A stretch of DNA of 62,608 nt, from positions 1 through 62,608 of the forward strand of contig NZ_LBMH01000014.1 in assembly GCF_001005305.1 (NCBI RefSeq), read 5' to 3'. This DNA is from Kordia zhangzhouensis. GTDB lineage: Bacteria; Bacteroidota; Bacteroidia; Flavobacteriales; Flavobacteriaceae. A model generated the notes under the pieces. The model saw nothing but the letters and a program-made list of their open reading frames with translations, ran no database searches and had not been told where the DNA came from. The position numbers and the translations under genes were made by a program. Below, piece by piece: positions 23,244-50,232 of this stretch. How positions within the stretch are numbered: the first letter of the stretch is position 1; each line of letters begins with the position of its first letter.

Positions 23244-23459
23244 TTAGTTACATCCGCAACCACCTCCTGCTTTTCCTCCATTAGCTCCTGAAGCAGCTTC
23301 TCGATAAACTTGAAAGTTTGTTTCAAATCGCTCAATTGAATTGGCAGATAGTTTCATATCTGGATCATTCAAATTCACTTTTTCATATTCTTTTACAGCC
23401 ACACAAGAAGTTAGTGAGATTGCACTGCATCCAATGAGCAAGGTTTTTTTAAAATTCAT
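23244..23459 (-). CDS. DUF4266 small lipoprotein with C-terminal Gly/Cys motif
   Basis: 71 residues. The lipobox is LTSC (Cys19), so the mature protein is a lipid-anchored peptide of about 53 residues. It carries NDPDMKLSANSIERFE and ends in GGKAGGGCGCN. The terminal glycine-rich run with two cysteines one residue apart is the hallmark of DUF4266 and suggests metal binding, disulfide exchange or a covalent modification. It lies 5 bases after ApbE and 32 bases before DUF3570. Confidence 0.8.
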   Translation of the reverse strand: MNFKKTLLIGCSAISLTSCVAVKEYEKVNLNDPDMKLSANSIERFETNFQVYREAASGANGGKAGGGCGCN

Positions 23460-47061: not shown

Positions 47062-48165
47062 TTACAGTTTTATAGTGTCAAAATCATTGTAATGTGCTTT
47101 GTCGACAATGGTTCCTCTTTCAAGTTTTAGTATCCCTGGATTGGAACGAACTACTGTTTTTAACGCTGTTTCATCCGACAAGTAAAAGTCAAAATTGAAT
47201 TGCATCAAATCGGCAAGCGACTTCATATCGTTTGGATCTGAAGAAGATAACCCAATTACTTTGTATCCCGCATCAATCGCTTTGTCTGTAAAACTTTTTA
47301 CTTTTTCAAAACCGTCTTCTTCTGCTTTGTCAAGACTGTACATGATGACAATGATTAATTTGTCTTCTTCCATCATCATTTCGGTCACATCTCCTTCATC
47401 TAGACTTTCAATAGAAAAATCGTGAATCGGTGGCTCGTATCCCTTTTCAATCATACGACTATCTACTTTTACATACGTTCCACCTTCAACTTCAGGGTAC
47501 TCTGTACTACGTGTTACAATTTCTTTTTCTTCACCATTTACATTGAATGTCCAAATGTATTCAAACACAGGTCGCGGTGTTTCTGGAGGAATGCTCATTC
47601 CTTCCATAATGTTAGCTCCTACATGATATGGTCTAAAATCAAACACTGGTAAATGATTCAATACGTGTCTTCCAAAGAAAATACATGCAATCAAGCTTAC
47701 AGTTGTGATTCCTGCATTTATTTTATTAGTAAATAATGGTTTGATATGCGTATGCCCTATTACTAGGATGATAATTAAGACTAATAAAAACACGTCTTTC
47801 CAAAAGCTTTCCCACGGTGTAAGTTTTAAGAAATCTCCAAAACATCCACAATCAGTTACTTTATTAAAATAAGCCGAATAAAATGTAAGAAATGTAAAAA
47901 ATAAGATAAGCCCTAAAAGCATTCCCAATACTGGCTTTTTTTGATAACCGAGCAGAATCATTACTCCGAGAATAATTTCAAGAATCACAATAAACACAGC
48001 AATTCCGAGCGCATACGGAGAAAGAAATTCCATGTTCAATACACCTTCTGAAAAATATTCGGTAAGCTTGAATGAAAAACCAACAGGATCGTTGAGTTTG
48101 ATAAATCCTGAAAAGATAAATAATCCGCCAACAATAATTCGAGCAATTGCAATCAGGTATTTCAT
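47062..48165 (-). CDS. MauE/DoxX-type membrane protein with thioredoxin-like C-terminus (BT_3928-like)
   Basis: 367 residues. The N-terminal half has four or five membrane helices with the GGLFIFSGFIKLNDPVGFSFKLTEYF signature of MauE/DoxX relatives and VTDCGCFGDFLKLTPWESFWKD. The C-terminal half has a thioredoxin-like domain without a CxxC pair (KLIIVIMYSLDKAEEDGFEKVKSFTDKA...GYKVIGLSSS). In Bacteroidetes this family lies near folP, tpiA and prmA, as here. A role in disulfide or electron transfer across the inner membrane is inferred, not shown. Confidence 0.85.
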   Translation of the reverse strand: MKYLIAIARIIVGGLFIFSGFIKLNDPVGFSFKLTEYFSEGVLNMEFLSPYALGIAVFIVILEIILGVMILLGYQKKPVLGMLLGLILFFTFLTFYSAYFNKVTDCGCFGDFLKLTPWESFWKDVFLLVLIIILVIGHTHIKPLFTNKINAGITTVSLIACIFFGRHVLNHLPVFDFRPYHVGANIMEGMSIPPETPRPVFEYIWTFNVNGEEKEIVTRSTEYPEVEGGTYVKVDSRMIEKGYEPPIHDFSIESLDEGDVTEMMMEEDKLIIVIMYSLDKAEEDGFEKVKSFTDKAIDAGYKVIGLSSSDPNDMKSLADLMQFNFDFYLSDETALKTVVRSNPGILKLERGTIVDKAHYNDFDTIKL

Positions 48166-48272: not shown

Positions 48273-49094
48273 ATGCGAAGTATAAACTGTAAAGGCACTT
48301 TGATTTCTCTAGACACTCCTAAAGTGATGGGAATTTTAAATATAACTCCTGACTCTTTTTATGATGGAGGAAAGTATAAGGATGCAAAAAGCATTGTGTC
48401 ACAAGTAGAAAAAATGCTGAAGGAAGGAGCTACTTTTATTGACATAGGAGCTTATAGTTCGCGACCAAGTGCTGCAAAAGTTACAGAAGAAGAAGAAAAA
48501 CAACGATTGCTTCCTATATTGGAATTAATTTTGGGCGAATTCCCTAACGCATTAATCTCAGTAGATACATTTCGAAGTGAAATTGCCAAAAAAGCCATTG
48601 ATATAGGAGCCACTCTGATTAATGATATTTCTGCAGGGAATTTAGATTCGCAGATGATGAAAACTGTAGGAGAATTAAATGTTCCTTATATCATGATGCA
48701 TATGCAAGGAACTCCTCAAAATATGCAACAAGATCCTTTTTATGAAAATGTAACAAAAGATATTATTCGAGAACTTTCTGAAAAAATTGCGCTAGCTAGA
48801 ACTCATAAAGTTAATGACCTTATTATTGATCCAGGCTTTGGTTTTGGAAAAACGATTGCGCACAATTATACTATTTTAAAACAGCTTGATTTATTTGAGA
48901 TTTTGAATTGCCCTGTGCTAGTTGGAGTTTCTAGAAAATCTATGATTTATAAAGTGTTAGAAACATCTCCTCAAGAAGCTTTAAATGGAACTTCTATCAT
49001 ACATACAATTGCATTACAAAATGGCGCATCAATTTTACGCGTACATGATGTTAAAGAAGCCGTAGAATGTGTGAAATTGGTTTCTATGTTATAA
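48273..49094 (+). CDS. folP: Dihydropteroate synthase
   Basis: 273 residues. Motifs: MGILNITPDSFYDGGKY, GATFIDIGAYSSRPSA, ISVDTFRSEIA, INDISAGN, YIMMHMQGTPQNMQ, IIDPGFGFGKT and VGVSRKSM. It joins p-aminobenzoate to the pterin pyrophosphate in folate synthesis and is the sulfonamide target. It is divergent from the MauE-like gene, and followed by a terminator and a hidden small peptide gene before cdaA. Confidence 0.98.
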   Translation: MRSINCKGTLISLDTPKVMGILNITPDSFYDGGKYKDAKSIVSQVEKMLKEGATFIDIGAYSSRPSAAKVTEEEEKQRLLPILELILGEFPNALISVDTFRSEIAKKAIDIGATLINDISAGNLDSQMMKTVGELNVPYIMMHMQGTPQNMQQDPFYENVTKDIIRELSEKIALARTHKVNDLIIDPGFGFGKTIAHNYTILKQLDLFEILNCPVLVGVSRKSMIYKVLETSPQEALNGTSIIHTIALQNGASILRVHDVKEAVECVKLVSML

Positions 49095-49128
49095 AAAAAC
49101 TGCCTAAATTATTTTTTAGACAGTTTTT
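49093..49128. terminator. Bidirectional terminator between folP and the Cys-rich peptide gene
   Basis: AAAACTGCCTAAA/TTTAGACAGTTTT with one mismatch, right after folP. On the minus strand it lies 14 bases past the stop of the small peptide gene. Confidence 0.75.
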
Positions 49129-49141
49129 CCTTTTTTAAGAA

Positions 49142-49297
49142 TCAAAGACAATAACAACACTGTACTTCCGCACAATGATGTCCACAATCTGTACAAATAC
49201 CATTGTTAAAACATTTAGCGCGTCCACCATTAATTTTTTGTTGCTCTTTTTTTTCGATTTCCGAAACTCCATTAATTTTTAAAATACTACGTAACAT
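49142..49297 (-). CDS. Cys-rich double-glycine leader peptide (bacteriocin/RiPP-like precursor)
   Basis: 51 codons, ATG 49297 to TGA at 49142. The first 25 residues form a leader of the double-glycine type used in flavobacteria: MLRSILKINGV, an E/K-rich helix (EIEKKEQQK), then INGG. After Gly24-Gly25 comes a 26-residue core with seven cysteines (29, 35, 38, 42, 47, 48, 50) and two adjacent His. The gene has its own strand (opposite to folP and cdaA) and a terminator. The leader predicts export and cleavage by a C39-peptidase ABC transporter; none lies in the window (the ABC exporter at 51-53 kb has no C39 domain). No modifying enzyme is adjacent either. Function unknown; an antimicrobial or signalling peptide is an inference. 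Confidence 0.75.
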   Translation of the reverse strand: MLRSILKINGVSEIEKKEQQKINGGRAKCFNNGICTDCGHHCAEVQCCYCL

Positions 49298-49431
49298 AAT
49301 GATAGGTTTTTATGGTTATATATTTTTAATATAAAAAACTTACAAATCACCTAGCTACGGTTTCGCCATAAAAGTGAGTTTACGACAACTTTATCTATGA
49401 GGTTCTATTATATTTATTATTTTTACTTTAA

Positions 49432-50232
49432 TTGTATACGCAACTGACATTGGATTTTATCGATTTTTTAAATTTTGACCTGCTAGATTTTATTGAGATT
49501 ATTCTCGTTGCCGTGCTTTTGTATTATATCTATAAACTTGTAAAAGGAACGGCAGCGATTAATATTTTTATTGGAATCGTTATTATTTTCATTATTTGGA
49601 AAGTAACAGAAGCTTTGGATATGAAGGTATTAAGCAATATTTTTGGCGGTTTTATCAACGTAGGAATTATTGCTTTATTTATTGTCTTTCAACAAGAAAT
49701 CAGAAAGTTTTTATTAATGATTGGTTCTACCAATTTTGCGACCAAACGCCGTTTTATAAAACATTTCAAATTCCTAAAACAAGATGTAAATACAGAAACC
49801 GACATTGAAGCTATTGTTAAAGCTTGCACCAAAATGTCTGCTTCAAAAACTGGTGCTATTATTGTAATTGAACGAAATAATTCACTGGATTTTGTCAAAG
49901 ATTCGGGTGATAAGATGGGCATGGACGTAAATGTTCCTACGTTAGAAAGTATCTTCTTTAAAAATAGTCCATTACATGATGGTGCTGTTATTATTCAAGG
50001 GAATCGAGTCACAGCTACACGTGTAATTTTACCCGTTTCAAAAGAAACCATGATTCCGCAACGCTTCGGATTACGCCATAGAGCTGCTGTTGGAATTACC
50101 GAAAAGACTGACGCCCTTGTATTAGTAGTTTCGGAAGAAACCGGCCAAATTTCCTATATCCGCGACGGCGAGTTTGTACTATACGAAGATATAGGAATGC
50201 TTCAAGAAATGGTTCAAAATGATTTGAATTGA
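49432..50232 (+). CDS. cdaA: Diadenylate cyclase (c-di-AMP synthase)
   Basis: 266 residues from a TTG start at 49432; upstream ATGs are out of frame. Three membrane helices (residues 20-85: LDFIEIILVAVLLYYIYKLV, INIFIGIVIIFIIWKV, FGGFINVGIIALFIVF) lead to the DAC domain with LHDGAVIIQGNRV (DGA motif) and FGLRHRAAVGITE (RHR motif), both needed to make c-di-AMP from two ATP. Placement after folP is typical of Bacteroidetes. A DUF3667 membrane protein starts 10 bases later and may be co-transcribed. Confidence 0.96.
   Translation: MYTQLTLDFIDFLNFDLLDFIEIILVAVLLYYIYKLVKGTAAINIFIGIVIIFIIWKVTEALDMKVLSNIFGGFINVGIIALFIVFQQEIRKFLLMIGSTNFATKRRFIKHFKFLKQDVNTETDIEAIVKACTKMSASKTGAIIVIERNNSLDFVKDSGDKMGMDVNVPTLESIFFKNSPLHDGAVIIQGNRVTATRVILPVSKETMIPQRFGLRHRAAVGITEKTDALVLVVSEETGQISYIRDGEFVLYEDIGMLQEMVQNDLN

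Follow-up and report, generated by a model that had tools for sequence, protein, structure and literature searches.

A small cysteine-rich double-glycine peptide gene between folP and cdaA of Kordia zhangzhouensis appears to belong to a dispersed set with a shared promoter palindrome

A 51-codon reading frame between folP and cdaA of Kordia zhangzhouensis is a real gene for a cysteine-rich precursor peptide with a double-glycine leader. Judged from comparative sequence data, the gene appears to belong to a set of Kordia peptide genes that are scattered over the genome and co-regulated, and disulfides appear to fit best as the modification of its core. In the window, which is the whole stretch of 62,608 nucleotides analyzed, the gene and its surroundings comprise the following features.

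49142..49297, minus strand: double-glycine precursor peptide gene of 51 codons, with the stop codon at 49142-49144
49223..49297, minus strand: leader of 25 residues ending in KINGG, of a type common to other peptides of the same genome
49145..49222, minus strand: core of 26 residues with 7 cysteines, of which C29, C35, C42, and C47 are invariant in 20 aligned family members
49095..49129 (ends approximate), both directions: terminator-like hairpin separating the peptide gene from folP, which converges on it, seen in the alignment of 8 orthologues
49356..49370, minus strand: 15-bp palindrome TATGGCGAAACCGTA, ending 58 nt upstream of the start codon, from aligned upstream regions
49328..49333, minus strand: TATATT, a TAnnTT element exactly 22 nt past the palindrome and a putative promoter element

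The earlier note had proposed a hidden peptide gene at this place, and the 51 residues and stop codon given there are the exact translation of window:49142-49297:-. The cysteine pattern described for the core, C-x5-C-x2-C-x3-C-x4-CC-x-C with seven cysteines and a His-His pair, was present in the 26 residues, and the computed average mass of the reduced core was 2892 Da (about 2.8 kDa in the earlier note). The gene is flanked by folP (PF00809) and cdaA (DAC, CdaA_N). It was the only reading frame in the window that combined a double-glycine leader with at least four core cysteines, a combination found once per 100 mononucleotide shuffles. The region 49050-49480 had no Rfam match, and the peptide had no Pfam match at an E value of 1 and a single NCBIfam match far under the cut-off. 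Two other frames on the minus strand of the window were recorded, namely, a MauE/DoxX-type membrane protein two genes from the peptide gene (47062-48165) and a weak double-glycine look-alike, a short frame with the end ANGGKAGGGCGCN (23247-23357).

A peptide match was found in 10 of the 11 Kordia genomes, our own included, in a search at an E value of 1e-4. At the site between folP and cdaA, an intact frame was present in eight of the 11 (our own, G001, G003, G004, G005, G006, G009, and G010), and the seven other orthologues were in frame with 59 to 80% identity to our peptide. The frame was absent from this site in G002, and the contig of G007 stops within folP, so that its site stood outside the count of intact and broken copies. 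Disruption in close relatives, named in the earlier note as evidence against a gene, was seen in G008 only, where the leader GG was lost, an in-frame stop had appeared, and the palindrome was gone too; intact copies were present elsewhere in that genome, and the frame was undisrupted in the seven other genomes. When the eight intact copies were compared pairwise (28 pairs), the pooled pN/pS was 0.317, with the same value for leader and core, and third-position differences were in excess. This pattern of substitution indicates that the peptide gene is under purifying selection. The hairpin shared with folP was seen in all eight aligned orthologues with compensatory changes, the fold window being too short to span the whole hairpin in G003. 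In that genome, folP and the peptide frame do not adjoin: at this locus (L045), folP is followed first by a lipoprotein-like gene and then by a second, broken stretch of folP 3' sequence, an order that resembles an insertion with duplication.

The reading of the N terminus as a double-glycine leader also held, because the leader ends in GG and the preceding run is common to other precursors of the same genome. A search of our genome with the peptide returned 15 matches at E values of 10 or less, itself included, most of which had a similar leader; the cores of the double-glycine peptides within one genome were highly diverse. Among 20 chosen family sequences, the GG and cysteines 29, 35, 42, and 47 were invariant and E44 was nearly so, and C38, C48, and C50 were missing in some relatives. 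Related cores were found in Tenacibaculum (L057 and L058) and in three more Flavobacteriaceae genomes (L062, L069, and L074). The His-His pair was not conserved, being EK in G005 and HY in G009. The net charge of the core was 0 to -2, i.e., not cationic. A knottin-like fold was rejected, since the PDB sequence search gave a single chance-level match (E value of 0.47), the structural model was weak (mean pLDDT of 66), and Foldseek returned nothing. Two further peptide types were noted in passing. Double-glycine peptides at L036:1501-1695, L038:1501-1695, L057:3175-3363, and similar places have cores of the form QCGINGYCGPGNCCNTAGWC..., whose cysteine pattern we take to resemble that of hevein-type chitin-binding domains. 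Short cysteine-free double-glycine peptides, with tails such as ADKMHNKITQLMQS, adjoin cysteine-rich ones at L033, L036, L038, and L039 and form a third type.

What the present analysis adds to the earlier note is a candidate promoter element, the palindrome with TAnnTT, which appears from sequence comparison to be shared by scattered double-glycine genes. In the 11 Kordia genomes, the pattern TAWGGNNAAACCKTA had 108 sites, and the reversed pattern, used as a control, had 38. A double-glycine peptide gene lay 37 to 63 nt downstream of 58 of the 108 sites under a strict leader rule (50 were without one); for background positions, the counts were 278 of 8480 within these loci and 49 of 6794 at Kordia loci other than these. 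At the 58 sites, the palindrome was oriented one way in 42 cases and the other way in 16. When the leader rule was relaxed a little, 61 sites qualified (45 to 65 nt), and these have TAnnTT exactly 22 nt past the palindrome. Other peptides came from loci retrieved independently of the palindrome. With a looser form of the palindrome allowed, the full composite preceded 23 of the 46 such peptides of our leader type (our own orthologues account for seven) and 7 of the 17 of lanthipeptide type; about half of the independently found peptides were without the exact composite element. In 653 kb of sequence, with overlapping loci counted in, there were 44 composites, and 20 shuffles gave a mean of 0. 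At the folP-cdaA site, the palindrome was kept in seven of the eight orthologues and was degenerate by eye in G009, and no TAnnTTTG promoter was found in the 220 nt upstream of the eight. The palindrome is centered 30 nt upstream of TAnnTT, a place that would suit an activator.

Outside Kordia, the N-free form of the palindrome was present in 81 of 299 family genomes. In the scan of cluster and peptide loci from outside Kordia, no palindrome preceded a double-glycine peptide gene, and for this reason the regulon claim is limited to Kordia. Six of 30 non-Kordia palindrome loci (L257, L260, L263, L264, L281, and L286) had the site 62 to 121 nt before long reading frames with signal-like starts, which were mutually unrelated by BLASTP and ran past the sequence ends. 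In other genera, the palindrome may therefore serve other secreted proteins. At least one site was present in 17 of 38 oxidase-bearing and 62 of 259 oxidase-free non-Kordia genomes (P = 0.010). In G204, the oxidase match was preceded by a palindrome at a distance of about 110 nt, with no TAnnTT at 22 nt, and a second palindrome lay inside an apparent exporter coding sequence.

As stated in the earlier note, no recognized maturation or export gene stands beside the peptide gene. A C39 ABC exporter, for which the note had proposed a search, is found elsewhere in the genome. Two C39 matches were present. One, on contig C12, is a 735-aa C39 ABC exporter with DCGPTC in its N terminus, next to HlyD; it was the only intact C39 exporter found in the genome, and its 19.5-kb region also contains the genome's only LanB match. 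The other, on contig C1, is a protein of 518 aa composed of a degenerate C39-like part, VKOR, and then a thioredoxin-type CxxC. Among such fusions (45 loci), all 40 that were read had the VKOR and thioredoxin cysteine pairs, and no cysteine of their C39-like parts aligned at the place of the catalytic cysteine; the N-terminal part matched TIGR01846 weakly. HlyB, the ABC protein of type I secretion, likewise has a C39-like domain without catalytic residues, which is a substrate-binding part. The degenerate domain is joined to an ABC transporter in HlyB and to VKOR and a thioredoxin-type CxxC in the fusion. Because the oxidase fusion and the sole intact C39 exporter lie on other contigs, maturation of our peptide would act in trans.

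The fusion was present in all 11 Kordia genomes, and in each of them one or more C39 matches fell in an open frame longer than 730 aa. Across 299 Flavobacteriaceae, it was found in 15 of the 16 genomes positive for the A1 peptide profile and in 25 of the 283 others (Fisher's exact test, P = 8e-14, or 4e-12 without the two Kordia genomes), values that ignore phylogeny because the 16 profile-positive and 40 fusion-positive genomes come from a single sample of related genomes. Outside Kordia, most matches of the A1 profile cover mainly the leader, and the link to the oxidase is therefore one of leader type rather than of our own core. A double-glycine peptide with at least two cysteines lay within about 1.5 kb of the fusion at 33 of the 45 loci (L115 and L130, at least, being doubtful) and at 25 of the 28 fusion loci outside Kordia (L115, at least, being doubtful), whereas two of 13 control chunks of the window were positive, one of them through our own peptide. 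Five of 11 wider regions (L134, L136, L137, L139, and L140) contained peptides, a full C39 exporter, HlyD, and the oxidase; in four, HlyD came with an ABC frame that had no C39 part, and two had neither. The L143 stretch had no oxidase. Six further regions entered the cysteine parity count and the palindrome scan, outside the gene-by-gene reading. At L136, in another genus, a homologue of our core lies within a cluster of oxidase, C39 exporter, and HlyD, and the C12 exporter was 55.7 to 59.1% identical to five complete cluster exporters of other genera. Control of the oxidase gene by the palindrome of a neighboring peptide gene was considered and dropped, because a terminator-like hairpin and an apparent second promoter, seen by eye, separate the two genes. 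Two other arrangements were observed. A second C39-like/VKOR/thioredoxin paralogue, 26 to 29% identical, occurs in six of the 11 Kordia genomes (L128 to L133) and is not accompanied by a convincing peptide gene. In several genera (L048, L135, L137, L141, and L142), the oxidase lies, by eye, between mreB/rodA-like and surE/lpxB-like genes, at some of these sites with a full exporter cluster and at others with a peptide alone, as if the exporter had been lost.

We infer the transcription, regulator, processing, bonds, and target of the peptide as follows. A regulator would bind the palindrome upstream of TAnnTT and would thereby switch, in a presumed direction, our gene along with many scattered double-glycine genes. 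The C39 ABC exporter with HlyD, whose genes are present on contig C12, would cut after GG and export the core. The C1 fusion would recognize the same leader type through its degenerate C39-like part and, as its genomic association with such peptides suggests, would oxidize the core through VKOR and the thioredoxin-type CxxC to two or three disulfides with one cysteine left over. In the last and weakest step, the secreted peptide would act outside the cell as a bacteriocin-like antagonist. Taken as a whole, a disulfide-rich peptide of some 2.9 kDa that is switched by the palindrome, matured in trans, secreted, and bacteriocin-like is the explanation that we consider somewhat more likely than not. 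The sites of the reversed control, the 50 palindromes with no peptide gene behind them, and the peptides without the exact composite count against it. Antagonism as a step of its own is put forward more tentatively; it is favored by the great diversity of cores in a single genome, and the non-cationic core is a point against an antimicrobial role, many antimicrobial peptides being cationic. The main alternative to antagonism is a secreted signal that informs sister cells. A promoter element common to many peptides and a core that is not cationic would suit a signal, but the diversity of cores in one genome fits an arsenal better and no receptor was identified, which makes a signal rather unlikely.

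The earlier note had left disulfides, lanthionines, and metal binding side by side for the core. Of the three, disulfides are plausible, lanthionines did not hold, and metal binding through the His-His pair was weakened. Of 100 non-redundant cores with a similar leader, each with at least two cysteines, 84 had an even and 16 an odd cysteine number, which fits disulfides for the peptide class; the set was defined by a leader pattern and a 60% redundancy cut over loci fetched by peptide or oxidase queries and includes a few off-type leaders. Our own peptide breaks this trend with its seven cysteines, a number retained in seven of the eight orthologues, and the odd cysteine may be a free thiol, form a dimer, or have another role. 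We do not claim a C38-C50 pairing from joint presence, because the five-cysteine relative at L025 does not fit. A secreted metal-binding or redox peptide, in which the cysteines, with or without histidines, bind copper or zinc or stay as free thiols, would account for seven cysteines in 26 residues and for the odd count. It is, however, disfavored by the unconserved His-His pair, the loss of C38, C48, and C50 in relatives, the association of the leader type with the oxidase, and a genome with no match to the MNIO enzyme (PF05114), and we regard it as somewhat less probable still than a signal. The lack of PF05114 also led us to reject an MNIO-modified peptide, and bactofencin A was rejected with an NF038163 score of 15.5 bits against a cut-off of 35.

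That the LanB cluster of contig C12 turns the peptide into a lanthipeptide in trans is very unlikely. The only LanB match does share its region with the C39 exporter, and leaders of lanthipeptide type do carry the same promoter element, but the core of our peptide has a single Ser/Thr (1 to 3, against 6 to 7 cysteines, over the eight orthologues) and the leader had no match to lant_leader_L1a (NF038153) at an E value of 1; this model matches an L1a-type Kordia peptide weakly, under its cut-off. A chance reading frame or a dying gene, as the broken copy in G008 and the absence in G002 might suggest, is hardly credible against a pN/pS of 0.32, seven intact orthologues besides our own, and the conservation of the palindrome (seven of eight) and the terminator hairpin.

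The disulfide-rich, in-trans reading can be compared with several known systems. Prochlorosins have many scattered precursor genes and few enzymes, with LanM lanthionine chemistry in cyanobacteria; the scattered precursors are alike, and the disulfides proposed here and the common promoter palindrome are different. As far as the excerpts of Coyne et al. 2019 (PMC6671954) describe them, the bacteroidetocins (class IIf) resemble our peptide as products of Bacteroidota with a double-glycine leader and cysteines in the core, whose system includes a thiol oxidoreductase and an exporter of the C39 type. In the same excerpts, their leaders have 15 to 16 residues, the mature peptides have 42 to 48 residues with usually four cysteines, and four genes stand together, including those for a transmembrane protein, a thiol oxidoreductase, and an ABC exporter. 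Our peptide falls outside these lengths, with a leader of 25 residues and a core of 26 with seven cysteines, and unlike that four-gene locus, its gene is an orphan with its machinery on other contigs. The class I lanthipeptides of Bacteroidetes have LxLxKx5L...GG leaders and a C39 protease in their clusters, according to the excerpts of PMC7268733, and LanA, LanB, and LanC genes are reported for a Kordia algicida cluster in the part of PMC3091789 consulted. The GG leader is common to both, and Kordia leaders of the lanthipeptide type carry our promoter element; compared with the description excerpted from PMC7268733, however, our leader is without the LxLxKx5L motif, the core has its one Ser/Thr, and no LanB stands alongside. 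In the literature library searched, no paper came up that links C39 or bacteriocins to VKOR (vitamin K epoxide reductase), and none on double-glycine leaders in Flavobacteriaceae.

Such peptides readily escape gene callers and cluster-based mining because their reading frames are short and no maturation gene lies nearby. The palindrome and the fixed TAnnTT offer a sequence handle for listing them in Kordia, and the C39-like/VKOR/thioredoxin fusion is a testable candidate enzyme for leader-guided disulfide formation. Kordia may have a dispersed regulon of orphan precursors of disulfide and lanthionine types with one palindrome, a fixed promoter distance, maturation in trans, and a leader-guided oxidase, a possibility that we place just short of an even chance. 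If true, the secreted peptides of one marine genus would include a co-regulated set, with a regulator and a target that could be searched for directly.
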